A stretch of DNA of 64,000 nt from an uncultured Fibrobacterota bacterium. Lineage in GTDB: Bacteria > Fibrobacterota > Fibrobacteria > Fibrobacterales > Fibrobacteraceae. Under the pieces are notes generated by a model. It saw only the letters and a program-made list of their open reading frames with translations. It had not been told where the DNA came from and did no database searches. Shown here piece by piece: positions 22,374-30,838 of the stretch. Numbering within the stretch: position 1 is the first letter of the stretch; the number at the start of each line of letters is the position of its first letter. The translations under genes and the position numbers were made by a program. The stretch lies in assembly GCA_903876665.1 (NCBI GenBank), contig CAIRAY010000125.1, forward strand, positions 1 to 64,000, read 5' to 3'.

Positions 22374-24398
22374 ATGCGTCAGTTTGACTCAAAATCCTGC
22401 ATTTTTCTGTTATCCTTTTTAGGGATAGTTGCTGGTGCTAATGCACAGGTTCCTGCCGACACTGCCGGGGCCAATGCCTTGCCTGCAACCGAGGTCCGTA
22501 CCCAAATCAACCCCATCGACCAGGTGGGCCCTGCGCCCATCGTCCTGAAGCCCGCGGACTGGGAAGGGTCGGGCCTAGGCCTTGCGGATTTGCTGGCAAC
22601 GCAAGCGGGCATGCACACTCGGCGCATGGGAGGCATGGGGAGTTTTCAGGCGGTTTCCATCCGAGGCGTGGCGGCCAACAAGGTCGTCGTCTGCATTGAT
22701 GGAATTCCTTTGGCCGAAAACCATGGAGCCGCCTTTAACTTGGGATCGGTGGACCTGAACCAGCTCGAACGGGTGGAGGTTTTCAAGGGTACTGTGCCGG
22801 CGGCCTTTGGGGGCAACGGACTGGGAGGCGCCATCAATTTGGTCACCCGCAAAAAAGTGGGTCAGGCGGGTAAGGTCCAGGCCTCCTACGGAAGCCACAA
22901 CACCGGCGAAGCATCCCTTACCCTGGGAAGCAACTTGACCGATTCCCTGCGTTGGAATTCCTCCGTTTCTTGGCGGTTTTCGGACAACGATTATAAATAT
23001 TATGACCGCAATGGCACCCCCTATAATCATGAGGACGACACGACCCGGACCCAGTCCAACGCGCGCTTCAATCAATTCAGTGGGAGCCATGGCTGGAGTC
23101 TCATCCGCAAAAGCGGAGAGCTTCGTCTTAACTTGGGGCATTCCCAGGAATCGGGTGGAATTCCCGGCACAGAATCCCAACACACCCATGTGGCCGGATT
23201 CGACCAGCAGTTTGTGGCTTCGCGCCTCACGTGGCTCAACCGGCCTTGGGGCACCGGACTTCGCCTGGAGGCGGAATTGGGTGCCCGTCTGGGCAAAGAC
23301 CTGTTCCATTGGTCCAACGGGATTGACGGCCTAGGGTACAGCGTAGGTGACCCGAATTATCAGGAAATTGGATCTCGTAGTCTCAAAGCGGACGGGGCCT
23401 TGCGCCTTTTTGGAGAATGGAACGAGCCCTATGGATTCGAATCGCACCTTTCGGGATTTGCTGAACAGCTGGACCCCAGGGACCATCCCGCCACCTTGAA
23501 TTCCTGGCAATGGCGTCTGCAACGCCACTCCCTCACCAGTGCTACAGAAGCATCCTGGGCCCCTCAATCCTGGATGGCTTTGCGGATGCATTACCAGGCC
23601 ACCGCCCAAATCGATCACAACTCCGGTGGGGTTTTACGCACAACATTTCCAGATACCATGGAGGCCGAAGCGGACAGCCGAATGGCGCAGGCCTTGCAAG
23701 GTTCCTTGCGCTGGGGAAAACCAACGTTCCCCTTTCATGTCTCCGTTTCTGGAGGTCACCACTACCGGATCCCTGAGCTACGGGAGCAGTACAGCACGGG
23801 CATGGGCATAGTCGCCAATCCTGATCTAAAGCCAGAATCCGGAGAAAAAGTGGAGCTTGCCGGGGAGTACGAGGTCAAAAAGACGCGCCTGCAAATCGCC
23901 CTGTTCTGGAATCAGTCCCGAAATGGGATATATTATGTCAATAGTGCGGGATTGTCCAAGCCCATGAACCTGACTCGCAACGATAATCTGGGATGCGAAC
24001 TGGATTTCCATTCCCAGCCCTTGCTTTGGTTGGATGTATCTGCGCAGGCAACTTTGCAGAATCCACGCAACCAGTCTCCTCTGGGCGCCTATTTGGGAAA
24101 GCTCACTCCCAATGAACCCCAATTATCCACCGGATCTGAATTCACTTTGCGCCTAGGTCCAAAATGGGACGTGGGCCTGCGTGCCGAATGGCGTTCCGAA
24201 GTGTTTAGGGACCCGGCCAACCAAATGAGAATCGCACCCCAGGAAGGAATCCATTCCACGGTGTCCTTTAAGCCCTGGAAGCAAGGGGTGCTCCGATTCA
24301 GCGCCACCAACTTGACCGGGGTGGAATACCAGGATGTGTATTCTGCTTATCCCACTCCGGGCCGTCAATATTTTATTCATCTCACCCAAACTTTTTAA
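22374..24398 (+). CDS. btuB: TonB-dependent vitamin B12 receptor BtuB
   Basis: The 674-residue outer-membrane protein has a signal peptide (CIFLLSFLGIVAGANAQ), a plug domain (about 45-165) with VSIRGVAANKVVVCIDGIPL and ERVEVFKGTVPAAFGG, and a 22-strand barrel ending in Phe (FIHLTQTF). The substrate is assigned from context: a B12 riboswitch directly upstream and B12 salvage genes downstream. The ATG at 22374 has GAGG upstream and starts just before the signal peptide. The next gene follows after 25 bp and is probably co-transcribed. Confidence 0.92.
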   Translation: MRQFDSKSCIFLLSFLGIVAGANAQVPADTAGANALPATEVRTQINPIDQVGPAPIVLKPADWEGSGLGLADLLATQAGMHTRRMGGMGSFQAVSIRGVAANKVVVCIDGIPLAENHGAAFNLGSVDLNQLERVEVFKGTVPAAFGGNGLGGAINLVTRKKVGQAGKVQASYGSHNTGEASLTLGSNLTDSLRWNSSVSWRFSDNDYKYYDRNGTPYNHEDDTTRTQSNARFNQFSGSHGWSLIRKSGELRLNLGHSQESGGIPGTESQHTHVAGFDQQFVASRLTWLNRPWGTGLRLEAELGARLGKDLFHWSNGIDGLGYSVGDPNYQEIGSRSLKADGALRLFGEWNEPYGFESHLSGFAEQLDPRDHPATLNSWQWRLQRHSLTSATEASWAPQSWMALRMHYQATAQIDHNSGGVLRTTFPDTMEAEADSRMAQALQGSLRWGKPTFPFHVSVSGGHHYRIPELREQYSTGMGIVANPDLKPESGEKVELAGEYEVKKTRLQIALFWNQSRNGIYYVNSAGLSKPMNLTRNDNLGCELDFHSQPLLWLDVSAQATLQNPRNQSPLGAYLGKLTPNEPQLSTGSEFTLRLGPKWDVGLRAEWRSEVFRDPANQMRIAPQEGIHSTVSFKPWKQGVLRFSATNLTGVEYQDVYSAYPTPGRQYFIHLTQTF

Positions 24399-24423: not shown

Positions 24424-25527
24424 ATGAAAAAAAAACTTCTTCTCCCTCTGGGAATTGCCTCCAGCCTGCTCCTCTCAGGCTGTCTGTTTGATTCCGATTC
24501 CACCGACAACAAGGTCAGCACTTTGACCCAAAATTCCGTGGTGGCGGTTTTTACTTCCGACTACACATCGGGAGCCATGCGCTGGCTGGACAGCAACCAG
24601 CTGGCCGATGACTCGCTTCAGTTCAATCAGGATTCGCGTATCCATGCTGGGGGTCAATACATCTATGTGCTGGAGCGCTTTGGCGCAGACAACCTGGTGC
24701 GGGTCGATGCCGCAAAACTTGGGATCGGTGATGCAGCGGTCGAGTACCAAAAATCCCTAGGTGCGGGAGCCAATCCGGAAGATGTGGCCATTGTCAGTAG
24801 CTCCCTGGGTTGGCTCGCTTTAAGTGGTCGTGGCTATTTGCTGAAGTTCAACCCGGCGACTGGCCTTGCCATGGACAGTATTGATATTTCGGCATACTCC
24901 CAGGACTCAACGCCCTCTCCCCAAGCTGTCGCCCTGGCGCTGTATGGCGATACCTTGTGTGTAGTGCTCCAGCGCCTTACAAGTTGGAGTCCAAATCACC
25001 CAGGCCTGTTGTTGCTTTTGGATGCAAATAAAGGTTCTATAATGGATACTATTGCTCTTTTGGGGCATAATCCAGGCGAAATCGTGCTTGAGGACGGAAA
25101 GCTTTATGTGGCCAATAGCGGCGATTTGATGAACAGCGAGCTTGACGATACCAGGAGCCTCGATGTGGTGGACCTAAAAACGGGTTCCGTGAAAGTACTT
25201 TCCACCTCTGTCGCACTGGGGGGTGGCCCCTCCGGCCTGACTCTCGACCAAAAAAATCAGGTTCTTTACACGAGCGTGTATAAGGGATGGGGCGAAACCA
25301 CCGTGGCCAAGGTATCCCTCACGGATGGGAAGGTCATCACCGCCAAGTTGCCGGGTGTTTCCAATGGATTTGGCGGAGTGGCTTTTGACAACAAGACCCA
25401 AATTCTGTATGTGGGAGAACAGGACCAAACCCTTGCGGGAGTAAAGTCCTGGGATGGGGATTCCCTTCGGGTCGTTTCCTCCCCCAAGGTCCTCCCGCCC
25501 ACCGGTTTTGCTATCGCAAACTGGTAA
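24424..25527 (+). CDS. BtuG-like beta-propeller lipoprotein, candidate B12 surface receptor
   Basis: The 367-residue product has a lipoprotein signal (MKKKLLLPLGIASSLLLSGC) and then repeated YVLERFG, GWLALSGRGYLLKF, KLYVANSGD, QVLYTSVYKG and ILYVGEQ blades, consistent with a six- or seven-bladed YncE-type propeller. In Bacteroides the lipoprotein BtuG is such a propeller; it caps BtuB and binds B12 very tightly. Here the gene follows btuB by 25 bp under the same riboswitch, so the same job is likely. Identity to BtuG cannot be measured by eye. AAGGA precedes the ATG. Confidence 0.75.
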   Translation: MKKKLLLPLGIASSLLLSGCLFDSDSTDNKVSTLTQNSVVAVFTSDYTSGAMRWLDSNQLADDSLQFNQDSRIHAGGQYIYVLERFGADNLVRVDAAKLGIGDAAVEYQKSLGAGANPEDVAIVSSSLGWLALSGRGYLLKFNPATGLAMDSIDISAYSQDSTPSPQAVALALYGDTLCVVLQRLTSWSPNHPGLLLLLDANKGSIMDTIALLGHNPGEIVLEDGKLYVANSGDLMNSELDDTRSLDVVDLKTGSVKVLSTSVALGGGPSGLTLDQKNQVLYTSVYKGWGETTVAKVSLTDGKVITAKLPGVSNGFGGVAFDNKTQILYVGEQDQTLAGVKSWDGDSLRVVSSPKVLPPTGFAIANW

Positions 25528-25528
25528 T

Positions 25529-26407
25529 TCAGTTCAAAGGCGTCCACCGATAACTATTGGTTGCTCCATCGAAAAGACAAATCACCAAGGCGTCTGTTCC
25601 ATCTGCGGTGTAAAAGGCCTTGCGGAAAATCATCTGCCCGCGGACCGTTGCTCCACAGTAGGAAATGGGAAACCCGTCGCCAAAGGAGTGAGGCACAAAC
25701 TTGAGGGTGCTCAAGCTGTCGGAGTGCAGATCCCCTTTGCTGTCAAAGCGGGCAAAGTCCGTGGCCGACAGGATTCCGTTACGGGAAGTGGTGGCGGTGC
25801 GTTCCGCTACGGCTTTGGTGCTATCTCCCGAAAACATGAGGTGGGGGCTGTGCACATGGGTCAGGGCAGAATCCATTTGCAACGCCCGAATCGAATCCAG
25901 CTCACCGGAGACTCGCAAGAGCAGGGTGTCAGAACGAATTTCCAGCACCAAGTTTCCACTGGTGGCCAGAGTGATTTCGTCCTTGAGGCCATTGAGGCTC
26001 CGGACTGCGAGCCCTGGCCCTATTCCTGCAGTGGGAAGCACCGTGTCGCTGACCGCCGCGGCGCTCCAGGCTTTGACCGCGCCCGTGAGCGCGACTCGGC
26101 CCGTCATGGTCTGTCCATCCAGCTTCACCTCCACATAGGCGGGTTTTCCGGACACCAGGGGCAAGGGAATGGAGTCTCCCAGACGGGCCTGGTAAAAGCC
26201 ATCCAACACCGCAATGGAATCGCACTCGCTCCAGACCTGCGTGCCTCCCGTCGGAGTCTCAAAAATGCTGAAGCAGGCCAAATGGTTTCCGTCCGAAGCC
26301 CGCTGCCCCGAGGGCTGCAGCAGGAGACCCTGCACGCTGAGCCAGTTTCCGGGATTTCCTGCGAAGAGCGTGCTTATGCTCAATACACACAACATCAATA
26401 TTTTCAT
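25529..26407 (-). CDS. Exported protein of unknown function in the B12 locus
   Basis: The 292-residue product has a signal peptide (MKILMLCVLSISTLFAG). The mature part starts with a beta-rich domain (about 20-125) and then a segment where Leu/Ile recurs with Ser/Asp (LVLEIRSDTLLLRVSGELDS), reminiscent of tail-fibre or adhesin stalks, followed by a C-terminal globular part with two Cys (YCGATV, VICLFDG). AGGAGA supports the start. It lies on the strand opposite the B12 genes, four bases after the partner gene and two bases from the end of the propeller gene. The family is unknown. Confidence 0.7.
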   Translation of the reverse strand: MKILMLCVLSISTLFAGNPGNWLSVQGLLLQPSGQRASDGNHLACFSIFETPTGGTQVWSECDSIAVLDGFYQARLGDSIPLPLVSGKPAYVEVKLDGQTMTGRVALTGAVKAWSAAAVSDTVLPTAGIGPGLAVRSLNGLKDEITLATSGNLVLEIRSDTLLLRVSGELDSIRALQMDSALTHVHSPHLMFSGDSTKAVAERTATTSRNGILSATDFARFDSKGDLHSDSLSTLKFVPHSFGDGFPISYCGATVRGQMIFRKAFYTADGTDALVICLFDGATNSYRWTPLN

Positions 26408-26410
26408 TTT

Positions 26411-26818
26411 TCACTTCTCCTGCGGGTTGTTACCCGTTTCGATACAATGCATTTTCAAAAGGGCCTGATGCTTGATGCGAAGGGACTCGTGGCCCGCCGA
26501 GCTTCCATTGACCCGATGAAGGTCCATCGAAGTGCCGGTGCAGAGGCCCAATTGGCCTTGTCGCTTATTGGAGCGGGATTCTATGCCCACAACCGGTCCC
26601 ACATGGGGCGCAAATACGCCTCCCACCGAAAGCCCCCCGGATTCTCCGTCGGGCATCCAATACCCGGTCAGGGGACCCACCCAGATTTTTGTGTGCAACG
26701 ACCCGAGATTCAAGGTTTCCGACCCGAATCCCGCCGCCATCAAGGTGGCACTGGCATCGCAGGCGATCCCGGTCATCCCAATCAGGCAAAATTTTCTTAT
26801 CCAGTTTCCAAAATGCAT
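26411..26818 (-). CDS. Small exported protein of unknown function
   Basis: The ATG at 26818 has an excellent GGAGG five bases upstream and gives MHFGNWIRKFCLIGMTGIAC, a short signal-like segment, then a Gly-rich stretch (GPLTGYWMPDGESGGLSVGG) and a basic C-terminus, 135 residues in all. It sits just ahead of the exported gene at 26407, so the two form a minus-strand pair inside the B12 locus. No family is recognised. Confidence 0.6.
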   Translation of the reverse strand: MHFGNWIRKFCLIGMTGIACDASATLMAAGFGSETLNLGSLHTKIWVGPLTGYWMPDGESGGLSVGGVFAPHVGPVVGIESRSNKRQGQLGLCTGTSMDLHRVNGSSAGHESLRIKHQALLKMHCIETGNNPQEK

Positions 26819-26919
26819 GGAAACCTCCATTGTTTCATAACCCCAACTCGGGGCTATGAAAGTATTGGACGAAGCAAAGCCAAAACCTGTACCCCCCAAC
26901 CAGGAATTATATTCCATCT

Positions 26920-27513
26920 ATGGCACTAAACATCAATCGCATATATACACGTAGTGGCGACAAGGGTCTGACGAGCCTTGCTTCCGGAGAACGCGTTCCC
27001 AAGCACCATCCGCGTTTGGAAAGTTACGGGACATCGGATGAACTTTGTTGCTTGGTCGGTCGCTTACGCACCCAGCTTGCGCAGGGGGCCACGGAAAAAT
27101 GCCGGGCGACTACCGAGGAAATGCTGGCCACCATTCAGGATCGGCTTTTCGACTTGGGGACCATGCTGGCTACTCCCCTAGGCAAGGAATGGCCGGGAAT
27201 GCCCGCCGTGAACCAGGCCGATGTGGACCAGCTTGAAACCTGGATCGATTTGCTGAATGCGGATCTCGCTCCCCTGACCTCCTTTGTATTGCCTGGGGGC
27301 TCGTTTTTGAACTGTGACGCCCATTTGGCGCGCGCCGTTTGCCGGAGGCTGGAGCGGGTCCTTTGTGGTCTGGGCGAACTGGACATTGAGGTTTCGCCAC
27401 TCGCGCTAGCCTGGGTCAACCGGCTTTCGGACTTGTTGTTTGTGCTTTCGCGTTGGTATGCCTGGCAAGAGGGGATTCCCGAATACCTTTGGAGCCAGAG
27501 AAAGGGATCATGA
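26920..27513 (+). CDS. PduO-type corrinoid adenosyltransferase
   Basis: The 197-residue four-helix protein starts with the ATP-binding IYTRSGDKGLTSLASGERVP, then KHHPRLESYGTSDEL and FVLPGGSFLNCDAHLARAVC with CRRLERVL. These are the PduO/MMAB signatures for transfer of the 5'-deoxyadenosyl group of ATP to cob(I)alamin or cobinamide. It makes the adenosylated corrinoid that CbiZ and CbiB act on. Its stop overlaps the next start (ATGA at 27510-27513), giving translational coupling. Confidence 0.93.
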   Translation: MALNINRIYTRSGDKGLTSLASGERVPKHHPRLESYGTSDELCCLVGRLRTQLAQGATEKCRATTEEMLATIQDRLFDLGTMLATPLGKEWPGMPAVNQADVDQLETWIDLLNADLAPLTSFVLPGGSFLNCDAHLARAVCRRLERVLCGLGELDIEVSPLALAWVNRLSDLLFVLSRWYAWQEGIPEYLWSQRKGS

Positions 27514-28760
27514 AGGGATTACGACCCCATTTTTGGAATGCCTTGTCATGTCAAAACTCATCGTGTCATGGCCCATCGTGTCATGGCCGGAACGGCCATC
27601 ACCGCACCGGGGCGGGACGAATTTGTGTGTTAAATGTGCTTTTTTCCCTTTGCATCCTTTGGCTTTTGGGCTGTTCGCCCCAGGAGGTCCCCGAGGTAAA
27701 GCCCTTGGCTTCTGTGGAGGCGCCCAGCTACACCCGGTATTCCAAAGGATTTCGCATCGATACGGTAACTGGATTCAAGATACTATCCATCACCAATCCA
27801 TGGGCGGGCCATGTCCTGACCCAAAGAATTCTTCTGGTCGATTCCCTGCCCAAAGGTGTGATGGGCAAAATCCCCGATTCCCTGCAGGCATTGCCTCGCC
27901 TGAAAATTCCTTTGCGGCGCATCGTGGCCCTTTCCTCTACGCACTTGGCGTTGCTTGCCGACTTGCAAGCCCTGGACCGGGTGGTGGGGGTTTCGCGTCA
28001 TGACCTCATCATCAGCCCGACTACCCGGGAAAATATGGCCCGGCGCAAGGTCCCTCAGGTGGGCTATGGGCCCTCCATCCAGGTGGAGCAAGTCTTGGAG
28101 CTCGAGCCCGATGCGGTTTTCACTTTTGGAACGGGAGATTCCAAATTTGATGATTATTCTGTTTTGCAAGAAGCTCATCTTCCGGTGTTGGTTCTTTCGG
28201 AGTGGCTCGAATCCCACCCGCTCGGGCGCCTGGAATGGATTCGTCTGCTCGGAATTTTACTCAAACAGGAAAATTTGGCGGATTCCATTTTTTTGGACCG
28301 AGCCAACCGCTACGATTCTCTTCTACGAATTGCACATAAACTACCCGATTTGCCCACGGTGATGACGGGTCTTCCTCAGGGCGAGACTTGGTACATGACC
28401 GGGGGACGCAATTATTTTGCCCAGTTTCTGCGCGACGCCAAAGCCAAATACTATTGGAATGAAAACCTCTCTCAAGGTTCTCTGAAAAGTTCGGTGGAAC
28501 AAGTTCTTGCTACGGCGCAACATGCGGACTACTGGTTGAATCCTGGGACGTGGAACACCCGTGCCGAGGCTTTGGCGGAGGATCCTCGCGTCATGCTTTT
28601 CGATTCTTGGAAAAAGGGTCAGGTCTATCAGCACAATAAATCCGACTTTTGGGAACTGGGAATGACTCGGCCCGACCTGGTGCTGGCGGATTTAATTGCT
28701 ATTTTTCATCCAAATTCGCTTCCGGCTTATCCAACCACCTTTTACCAACTCTTGCAATAG
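27510..28760 (+). CDS. btuF: BtuF-like corrinoid-binding periplasmic lipoprotein
   Basis: The mature part is a class III periplasmic binding protein (FepB/BtuF type): IVALSSTHLALLADLQALDR, VGVSRHDLI, then EQVLELEPDAVFTFGTGD and a long linking helix. The lipoprotein signal CVLNVLFSLCILWLLGC starts only about 39 residues in. The ATG at 27510 overlaps the pduO stop, so it is the coupled start; the stretch between it and the signal is translated palindromic repeat (SCQNSSCHGPSCHGRNGHHR). A GTG at 27627 would give a normal-length signal instead. BtuCD partners are not in the window. The B12 assignment comes from neighbours. Confidence 0.82.
   Translation: MKGLRPHFWNALSCQNSSCHGPSCHGRNGHHRTGAGRICVLNVLFSLCILWLLGCSPQEVPEVKPLASVEAPSYTRYSKGFRIDTVTGFKILSITNPWAGHVLTQRILLVDSLPKGVMGKIPDSLQALPRLKIPLRRIVALSSTHLALLADLQALDRVVGVSRHDLIISPTTRENMARRKVPQVGYGPSIQVEQVLELEPDAVFTFGTGDSKFDDYSVLQEAHLPVLVLSEWLESHPLGRLEWIRLLGILLKQENLADSIFLDRANRYDSLLRIAHKLPDLPTVMTGLPQGETWYMTGGRNYFAQFLRDAKAKYYWNENLSQGSLKSSVEQVLATAQHADYWLNPGTWNTRAEALAEDPRVMLFDSWKKGQVYQHNKSDFWELGMTRPDLVLADLIAIFHPNSLPAYPTTFYQLLQ
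27545..27612. repeat. Palindromic repeat inside the 5' end of btuF
   Basis: Three GTCATG motifs and the palindrome CATGGCCGGAACGGCCATCA lie between the coupled ATG and the signal-peptide codons. GTCATGGCCGGAAGGGCCAT at 56814-56833 is a close relative. Here the insert keeps the frame open, so the repeat is translated if the ATG at 27510 is used. Confidence 0.75.
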
Positions 28761-28772
28761 AGCGGAGCGAGA

Positions 28773-29891
28773 ATGGTTCTTTTACAATACCCTGGATTTA
28801 CCGTCCTGCGCGAACACCGGTTCGTGAAAGTCCTTTTCCATGCTCCGCATCGGAGCCTTTCTACCTGTGCGATCCATGGCGGACAACGCGAGGACCTGTT
28901 GGCGTTTTTGAATTGCCAGACCTGTGAAGGCAGTGCGTTGCATCCCAAGGCTCAGACCTTGCATTTGCTAAGTCGCGAAGCGATGCATTTGGAGAGCTGT
29001 CGCGAAGCGGCCTTGGAGCCCGGTACCACGGCTCAAATGGGCACGGCAGCCAACATGGATTATGTGGCGGTCCGTGAGGCGAACTATGAAGATGCACGCG
29101 TCTCGGCCATCGTGACTGCCGGAGTCGAGGGCAATGCGGGTCGCGCCGGGGATCCTGCCCAGTGGCACGAAGGATCCCAGGGTTATCAGGCCGTCCACGC
29201 CGTGCCGGGAACCATCAACATCATTTTGCTTTTTCATCAATCCTTGAGTCCGGCTGCCCTGGCGCGCAGTGCCGTAACCATGACGGAAGCCAAGTCTGCA
29301 GCCCTTCAGGATCTTGCGGTCGGAAGCCGTTATAGCTCCGGGCTCGCCACCGGAACCGGAACGGATCAGTTCGCCATAGCCAGTCCCTTGGCCTTGGAAG
29401 CCCGGTTTCACTGGACCGGCAAACATGCCAAGCTGGGCGAGCTCGTGGGCACCACGGTAAAAGAAGCGGTGCTGGAAGCGTTGCGTTGGCAAAATGGTTT
29501 TGAACCTTCGCGCACCCGTAGCTTGTTTCATGCCCTCGGGCGTTTTGGCCTACGTGAGGAAGCCTTCAAAGGCCATGTCGAGCGCATCATTCAGGATGAA
29601 GGACAGCGCAAATTTTTGCAGGATTGTACCACCATGCTGAGTAACGACCCTCGTTGCAGCGCATCGGCTTATGCGTTGGCCGCGGTTCTTGATCGGCAAA
29701 AGGCAGGGGTGTTGCCCAGTGGCTCTGCCCGGGACGCAGTGGCTCTGCAATGTGCGCTATTGGCCTGCGCGGTTTCGGGAAAGAATGAAAAGTTCTCCCA
29801 GTATCTGGCACAAATGCAAGCCTGCCACGAGGTGTTTCCCGATGGGCTGATTATGGCCATCTATTTAGGGTGGCGCGACAAATGGTGCTAA
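28773..29891 (+). CDS. cbiZ: Adenosylcobinamide amidohydrolase CbiZ with C-terminal extension
   Basis: CbiZ cuts the aminopropanol side chain from adenosylcobinamide, giving adenosylcobyric acid, the substrate of CbiB. The signature GTAANMDYVAVREANYEDAR with SAIVTAGVEGNAGRAGDP lies at about residues 90-130, and VPGTINIILLFHQ follows. The catalytic domain ends near 240. About 130 more residues make a mostly helical tail (SRTRSLFHALGRFGLREEAF onward) that ordinary CbiZ lacks. It starts 12 bp after btuF and overlaps cbiB, so the operon order is salvage logic. Confidence 0.88.
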   Translation: MVLLQYPGFTVLREHRFVKVLFHAPHRSLSTCAIHGGQREDLLAFLNCQTCEGSALHPKAQTLHLLSREAMHLESCREAALEPGTTAQMGTAANMDYVAVREANYEDARVSAIVTAGVEGNAGRAGDPAQWHEGSQGYQAVHAVPGTINIILLFHQSLSPAALARSAVTMTEAKSAALQDLAVGSRYSSGLATGTGTDQFAIASPLALEARFHWTGKHAKLGELVGTTVKEAVLEALRWQNGFEPSRTRSLFHALGRFGLREEAFKGHVERIIQDEGQRKFLQDCTTMLSNDPRCSASAYALAAVLDRQKAGVLPSGSARDAVALQCALLACAVSGKNEKFSQYLAQMQACHEVFPDGLIMAIYLGWRDKWC

Positions 29892-30838
29892 CCCTGGCTT
29901 CGGCCCTAGTTCCCGCTACCATTCTTTTGGATGCAATTATTGGTGATCCCGTGTATCGTTTTCATCCGATTCGCCTGATGGGTCAAGCCATCGTTTGGAT
30001 TGAACAAAAAATTTTCGCCTGGGGATGGAATACTCGGATGGGCGGGGTGATCCTGGTGTTGGCCATGATGGCCCTCTTTGTTTTGCCCGTTTGGTTTGTG
30101 CATGAAAAGCTTTGGGCTTTGAGCCCTTGGGCTGGGTTTGCCTGGGACCTGTTTTGGACCACCCATTGCCTGGCTTTGCGGGACTTGGTCAAGCACGTTT
30201 ACCGGATTGCCCGCGCAGTCCGCGCAAGAGATATCCCCAGGGCGCGTCAGGCGTGTTCCATGCTGGTGGGACGCGACACGGAGCCTATGGACGGACCCGC
30301 CTGTTGCCGGGCAGGGATTGAAAGCCTTTCGGAAAACCTGACCGACGGTGTCATTTCGCCCTTGTTCTGGTTGGTGTTGCTGGGCGTTCCGGGCATGGTG
30401 GCTTTCAAGGTGGCGAGTACTTTGGATTCCATGGTAGGGTACAAAAGCGAGCGCTACCTGTTTTTCGGATGGGCTGGTGCGCGCCTGGACGATGTCATGA
30501 ATTATTTGCCCGCACGCATCACCTGGATCCTGACCGTGCTTGCGGCCCTGGTGCTACCCGGGTATTCTGCCCGCAAAACGATTAGGATTGGACTTCGGCA
30601 ACACGCCCGGGTGCCGGGGCCCAACTCGGGCTGGAGCGAGACCGCTTTTGCCGGAGCCTTGGGAGTCCGCATCGCAGGTCCTATATGGAAGAATGGGGTT
30701 TTGGTAAATGAGATTTGGCTGGGATCCCCATCCGACCATGCGAATGCAACCCCCCGGGATATTTCTCGAGCTGTGACACTATCTGTCGTCTGTGTGCTCT
30801 TCTTTGCAATCCTGGCCCTACCCTTTTGGATGGGATAA
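29882..30838 (+). CDS. cbiB: Adenosylcobinamide-phosphate synthase CbiB
   Basis: CbiB (CobD) is an integral membrane enzyme that joins adenosylcobyric acid to aminopropanol or its phosphate. The 318-residue protein starts MVLTLASALVPATILLDAII, has the family motif GDPVYRFHPIRLMG near 23-36, the conserved ESLSENLTDGVISPLFW and TLDSMVGYKSERY, and four to five hydrophobic helices. Its ATG lies inside the end of cbiZ (10-bp overlap). No cobT, cobS or cobU is in view, so loop assembly must be finished elsewhere. Confidence 0.92.
   Translation: MVLTLASALVPATILLDAIIGDPVYRFHPIRLMGQAIVWIEQKIFAWGWNTRMGGVILVLAMMALFVLPVWFVHEKLWALSPWAGFAWDLFWTTHCLALRDLVKHVYRIARAVRARDIPRARQACSMLVGRDTEPMDGPACCRAGIESLSENLTDGVISPLFWLVLLGVPGMVAFKVASTLDSMVGYKSERYLFFGWAGARLDDVMNYLPARITWILTVLAALVLPGYSARKTIRIGLRQHARVPGPNSGWSETAFAGALGVRIAGPIWKNGVLVNEIWLGSPSDHANATPRDISRAVTLSVVCVLFFAILALPFWMG

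Follow-up and report, generated by a model that had tools for sequence, protein, structure and literature searches.

Is the two-part B12 receptor of the Bacteroidota, a BtuB transporter capped by a propeller lipoprotein, also made by other bacteria? The question is raised by a 64,000-nucleotide stretch of DNA (hereafter the window) from an uncultured member of the Fibrobacterota, a phylum that includes gut fibre-digesters. A preliminary description, made from the letters alone, had placed a lipoprotein propeller gene 25 bp past a riboswitch-controlled btuB and had proposed that the BtuB-BtuG receptor exists in this lineage. In the published record, BlastP searches of 313 gut genomes returned no BtuG homologs outside the Bacteroidetes (Wexler et al., 2018; PMC6143338), lipoprotein-capped TonB-dependent transporters have been described as confined to that phylum (Abellon-Ruiz et al.; PMC10404256), and both papers tie BtuG or capped transporters to gut life. 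Our literature search found no paper naming both BtuG and Fibrobacter. The data presented here indicate that the B12 'pedal bin', thought to be restricted to the Bacteroidota, is probably shared by a second phylum, the Fibrobacterota, where it forms an old branch of its own.

A lipoprotein gene adjoins a BtuB-like gene under a cobalamin riboswitch

Annotation of the window (Table 1) confirmed the gene arrangement and the coordinates given for it, with the riboswitch recognized by RF00174, the transporter by its Plug and barrel domains and the lipoprotein by its lipobox. The riboswitch is the sole Rfam match in the window, and a search of the whole window genome with RF00174 returned this match and no other. 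Between the btuB stop codon (24396-24398) and the propeller open reading frame lies a gap of 25 nt; the sequence AAGGAAC precedes the propeller ATG, and the encoded protein carries a signal peptide and a lipobox (LLSG-C20). Further downstream, two minus-strand ORFs interrupt the B12 operon in the window genome. In a relative (G108, locus L033) the operon is continuous and comprises the same genes without these two ORFs.

Table 1. Features of the B12 locus in the window.
Feature	Position	Strand	Evidence
Cobalamin riboswitch RF00174	22078..22286	+	98.3 bits, E 2.5e-23 (gathering score 31.5)
BtuB-like TonB-dependent transporter, 674 aa	22374..24398	+	Plug 5.6e-16, barrel 1.2e-10
Lipoprotein beta-propeller, proposed BtuG-like B12-capturing lid, 367 aa	24424..25527	+	Lipobox, AlphaFold2, Foldseek, family
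ORF	25529..26407	-	No Pfam match
ORF	26411..26917	-	No Pfam match
PduO-type cob(I)alamin adenosyltransferase (ATR)	26920..27513	+	TIGR00636 148.6 bits (above cut-off), PF01923 9e-52
BtuF-like periplasmic binding protein	27513..28760	+	PF01497 3.9e-22
CbiZ, adenosylcobinamide amidohydrolase (cobamide salvage and remodelling)	28773..29891	+	PF01955 2e-53
CbiB/CobD, adenosylcobinamide-phosphate synthase	29870..30838	+	PF03186 2.4e-89, TIGR00380 above cut-off

The transporter scores below the cut-off of TIGR01779, the BtuB equivalog of NCBIfam (97.8 bits, cut-off 599.7). Among PDB sequences its best match is XusA (9gbc_A, 4e-21), ahead of E. coli BtuB (5e-10) and BtuB1 (8blw_A, 1e-6). Its context is that of a BtuB, as the protein is TonB-dependent, is encoded under a cobalamin riboswitch and is surrounded by B12 genes.

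The lipoprotein is predicted to adopt a BtuG-type fold

Because a Pfam search with the protein alone returned no family above the cut-off, the term propeller rests on structure and on relatives. An AlphaFold2 model, computed from an alignment of 33 relatives, reached a pLDDT of 90.9 and a pTM of 0.87. When this model was compared with the PDB by Foldseek, ranks 1-14 were all occupied by BtuG structures (BtuG1, BtuG2, BtuG3 or the Bacteroides uniformis BtuG 3DSM; E 1.2e-15 to 4e-12, TM 0.65-0.79), followed after a gap by YncE (E 1.3e-10, TM 0.54-0.64) and, lower, by XusB (E 2e-9, TM 0.67). The model thus predicts, with high confidence, a propeller of the BtuG type, and one that is probably seven-bladed, the number of blades being read from the match to the seven-bladed BtuG and not counted independently. 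The earlier call of a propeller was thus borne out by model and relatives, although Pfam could not have yielded it from the sequence alone, and the fold comparison singled out BtuG as the nearest PDB structure.

Profile comparisons relate the propeller to BtuG

With the single propeller sequence as query against the PDB, BtuG came first at a non-significant level (E 0.016). For the family profile, the best 12 distinct sequences in the PDB were all BtuG (7e-13 to 1e-8); behind them came an archaeal surface-layer propeller (1.7e-8), Drp35 (5e-6) and YncE (5e-4). HHalign related the family to riboswitch-linked Bacteroidota BtuGs at 99.9% (E 2.6e-31, 329 columns), to DUF4374-like proteins at 99.8% (E 1.6e-29) and to BtuG2/3 alone at 98.9%. 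The profile comparison proposed in the preliminary description therefore came out in favour of homology, the family profile selecting BtuG in the PDB as well as in Bacteroidota genomes.

A search of the window genome for DUF5074 (PF16819) gave no match, a result that initially weighed against BtuG. At E ≤0.01, this family matched 9 of 33 sampled Fibrobacterota propellers, the window protein not being one of them, and since these relatives do match, we ascribe the missing hit to divergence. DUF4374 matched none of the 33 sampled propellers at E 0.01. The NCBIfam model for YncE gave 12.1 bits on the propeller against a cut-off of 400, and YncE was rejected as nearest kin, being weaker both in fold (Foldseek) and in sequence (PDB profile, NCBIfam).

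The pair recurs throughout the Fibrobacterota

The window genome falls in one family with two genomes (G055 and G019) that contain an exact copy of the 121-bp 16S amplicon delimited by published Fibrobacter succinogenes primers (PMC7374609), whereas four Bacteroidota genomes searched alongside lack it; on this ground its phylum is read as Fibrobacterota, with families and phyla taken as grouped in the genome set. The propeller gene is close to universal in the Fibrobacterota and thus more than the curiosity of one lineage. In a first pass with the window protein as query, homologs were found in 138 of 151 Fibrobacterota genomes and in 39 of 41 genera, and a cobalamin riboswitch is present in 140 of the 151. 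Where a propeller was listed (135 genomes), 115 genomes carry a cobalamin riboswitch that shares the strand of the propeller gene and precedes it by 2.0-5.2 kb; the median distance is 2.27 kb, the length of one btuB gene. Among 39 fetched loci from many families, a BtuB-like gene adjoins or lies near the propeller in 36, and the riboswitch falls inside the fetched stretch in 32, several of the others being contig ends. Recurring in this way across the phylum, the order riboswitch, btuB, propeller is not a product of chance. The genomes sampled for these statements on spread, and for those below, are Fibrobacterota and Bacteroidota, and we do not claim that the arrangement is found in two phyla only.

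Five genomes (G003, G006, G029, G044 and G109) have the riboswitch and gave no propeller in the first pass. Loss of the gene was considered for them and rejected, because divergent propeller copies were found beside btuB. In genus g8 (G107, loci L035, L036 and L037; also G113 and G143), two or three propeller copies occur per genome; their riboswitches are weak or undetected, and copy L036 has no transporter nearby.

A blind search of Bacteroidota genomes retrieves BtuG loci

The strongest control on homology to BtuG is the reverse test in the Bacteroidota. The Fibrobacterota propeller profile was run over 248 Bacteroidota genomes blind to gene context, at most eight candidates being scored per genome, and 40 loci were fetched around the best matches in these and a few further named Bacteroidota genomes. 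A TonB-dependent transporter lies beside the profile match in 38 of the 40 loci, and 18 of the 24 loci scanned for it contain a cobalamin riboswitch. Of the six scanned loci free of a riboswitch, five have propellers that match DUF4374 weakly or resemble such proteins. In Bacteroides xylanisolvens, all three profile matches adjoin BtuB-like genes.

Two groups of loci from this search are worth recording. L188-L192 (Bacteroidota genomes G162, G244 and G387) hold pairs of a weakly DUF4374-like propeller and a TonB-dependent transporter, G162 and G387 each having several, and no cobalamin riboswitch was detected in L188, L190 and L191, which were scanned; these pairs may be lipoprotein-capped receptors of a group not yet characterised. 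At the Bacteroidota locus L199, two adjacent profile matches lie below a cobalamin riboswitch, with no transporter recognised beside them.

The DUF4374-like matches bear on the question of whether the Fibrobacterota pair could be a siderophore receptor of the XusAB type, carrying iron-siderophore, with the cobalamin riboswitch being incidental. XusB holds its siderophores away from the central pocket, and its gene sits with PepSY genes (PMC13142918). In three Bacteroidota genomes, some DUF4374-like, riboswitch-free propellers outscore BtuG with our profile, over its N-terminal part; XusB is among the fold matches of the propeller, and XusA is both the best PDB sequence match of the transporter and representative of the DUF4374-linked transporters with which it groups (see below). 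However, the fold is matched better by BtuG, the profile misses most canonical DUF4374 proteins, and DUF4374 was not found in the 29 Fibrobacterota genomes searched, which is not proof of absence. Moreover, the cobalamin riboswitch is kept before the pair throughout the phylum, and in the window the neighbours are B12 genes, including those for salvage, with a PepSY reductase absent among them. We thus regard an iron-siderophore cargo as very improbable and favour a cobamide receptor.

Conserved residues and the question of surface location

In BtuG2, B12 is contacted by the Asn54-Thr64 loop, Trp194, Tyr239, Trp272, Tyr316 and Tyr335 (PMC10404256). The columns conserved across Fibrobacterota propellers (D46-Y47-G50, N117, Q183-R184, G233, G266-G267 and G317) lie at or near several of the BtuG2 B12 loops. 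The BtuG contact residues themselves are mostly replaced, with N54-E-G-N becoming S-D-Y and both Tyr316 and Trp272 becoming Gly, the mapping being uncertain at this very low identity. The only counterparts kept are an aromatic residue at Trp194 and, in about half of the family, one for Tyr239, where the window protein has Leu. Judged from the alignment, the phylum-wide set of conserved residues would fit one shared ligand, and regulation and neighbouring genes suggest that this ligand is a corrinoid.

A lipobox and its cysteine are found across the family, and the residues past the cysteine are rich in S, D and N with no fixed motif; the lipoprotein export signal of the Bacteroidota cannot be assumed in the Fibrobacterota. 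For the complex, we used locus L033, where the two genes lie in one frame, and predicted a single chain by reading through the intervening TAA stop. This fused model of BtuB and propeller reached a pLDDT of 84.4 and a pTM of 0.63, the placement of the two parts relative to each other not being fixed. Its barrel is matched about equally by E. coli BtuB, XusA and BtuB1, with E. coli BtuB on top. Such a model gives no defined docking and speaks neither for nor against it; together with the lack of a fixed motif past the cysteine, it would be compatible with a propeller that, instead of capping the transporter at the surface, shuttles or chaperones B12 in the periplasm or at the inner leaflet. We consider this role very improbable: the BtuF-like protein encoded in the same locus already takes the periplasmic part, and, among solved structures, the homologues closest in fold cap TonB-dependent transporters at the cell surface (PMC10404256). 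A lid at the cell surface is the reading that we retain.

The Fibrobacterota propellers form a clade of their own

In a tree of 75 propellers, including 33 from Fibrobacterota, 25 BtuGs and DUF4374 types, the Fibrobacterota proteins formed one clade (support 98), the BtuGs another (99) and the DUF4374 types a third (94), the tree leaving the order of branching open. Lying outside the clade of 25 BtuGs, the Fibrobacterota propellers are not filed as BtuG orthologs; by sequence, they appear as a third clade of propeller lids, separate from BtuG and XusB. A second tree was built from 73 transporters; in it, those of the Fibrobacterota grouped with DUF4374-linked XusA-type transporters (99), apart from 24 Bacteroidota BtuBs (89), and forcing Fibrobacterota and Bacteroidota BtuB together was 35.8 log units worse (AU p = 0.028). 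Since both trees are quick, with long branches and few outgroups, we read them as speaking against a recent transfer, and as no more than a hint that the Fibrobacterota transporter and propeller may be akin to XusAB.

With the propellers in their own clade beside BtuG and XusB, and the transporter nearer to XusA than to Bacteroidota BtuB, recent transfer from the Bacteroidota appears unlikely. That the locus is a true BtuBG obtained by horizontal transfer is extremely improbable, because what it has in common with Bacteroidota BtuBG (neighbouring genes, the riboswitch, the fold and a remote homology) is countered by the monophyly of the propellers outside the BtuGs, by the position of the transporters outside the Bacteroidota BtuBs, and by a near-universal presence with great internal divergence, as old vertical descent predicts. 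Neither origin put forward in the preliminary description, transfer or independent recruitment of a YncE-type propeller, held up: the clade is not nested in BtuG, YncE is weaker in fold and sequence, and the transporter sides with the XusA types. The two-part receptor itself was supported, in that fold and profile place a BtuG-like lid beside a riboswitch-controlled BtuB outside the Bacteroidota; its equation with BtuG proper was not, given the separate clade and the largely replaced contact residues.

Discussion

We think it highly likely that the product of 24424-25527 is a BtuG-like cobamide-capturing lid on the upstream BtuB-like transporter, belonging to a separate old branch of propeller-capped receptors. 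The computations show the order of the genes, the riboswitch, the lipoprotein signal, the fold, the conservation through the phylum and the remote homology to BtuG. The role of B12 lid has good inferential support, and we propose with it that the protein sits at the surface, binds corrinoid, docks on BtuB and passes the corrinoid on. At low cellular cobalamin, the riboswitch would permit expression of the operon. The membrane-anchored, probably seven-bladed propeller lipoprotein would capture cobamides outside the cell, and the corrinoid-loaded lid would close on the BtuB-like barrel and hand the corrinoid over, operating as in Bacteroides BtuBG. TonB would then power import to BtuF, from which the corrinoid would pass to the salvage enzymes ATR, CbiZ and CbiB. 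The lid-and-barrel pair would be the receptor by which Fibrobacterota as a rule take up B12 across the outer membrane. It would belong to a wider family of TonB-dependent transporters with a propeller cap, in which BtuBG serves B12 and XusAB serves siderophores.

As to its origin, we tentatively suggest a scenario that we hold to be possible but not probable: propeller-capped TonB-dependent transporters may be an old module of the wider group that comprises Bacteroidota and Fibrobacterota, and the Fibrobacterota B12 receptor may have arisen from an XusAB-like ancestor separately from BtuBG, so that both would capture B12 by the same mechanism through pockets of different build. The near-universal counterpart across Fibrobacterota families implies that the capped-receptor strategy is older and more widespread than a restriction to the Bacteroidetes would allow. 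A related lesson comes from another B12-binding family, DUF4465/BtuJ, which was found in eight clades (PMC13398666). Fibrobacter offers cultivable test organisms, and the findings bear on B12 competition in rumen and gut.

Comparison with known systems

The propeller gene of E. coli YncE likewise lies beside a TonB-dependent transporter gene, but YncE is the weaker match in fold and sequence, and yncE runs opposite to its transporter gene; in E. coli (L230:964-4369), this neighbour is pqqU, encoding the PQQ transporter. E. coli BtuB is an outer-membrane cobalamin transporter, as the Fibrobacterota protein probably is, and gives the top structural match of the fused-model barrel, whereas it has no lipoprotein lid and is placed outside in the transporter tree. 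XusB (DUF4374, PF14298) is, with XusA, a propeller lid of a TonB-dependent transporter, and the Fibrobacterota transporter is near XusA in sequence and tree; in contrast, the Fibrobacterota propeller has no DUF4374 match, and the pair has B12 genes as neighbours and a cobalamin riboswitch in front of it. The closest parallel is BtuG (BtuG1-3 of Bacteroides thetaiotaomicron; DUF5074), also a propeller lipoprotein adjoining btuB under a cobalamin riboswitch, which offers the closest PDB fold, a nearly full-length HHalign match and a similar net negative charge (median -15 versus -16). Unlike BtuG, the Fibrobacterota propellers, at about 13% identity in the structural alignment, form a separate clade, have the B12-contact residues largely replaced and show no fixed export motif of the Bacteroidota type. 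Together, these systems invite a natural comparison of how a single propeller scaffold came to serve B12 in one branch and siderophores in a different one.
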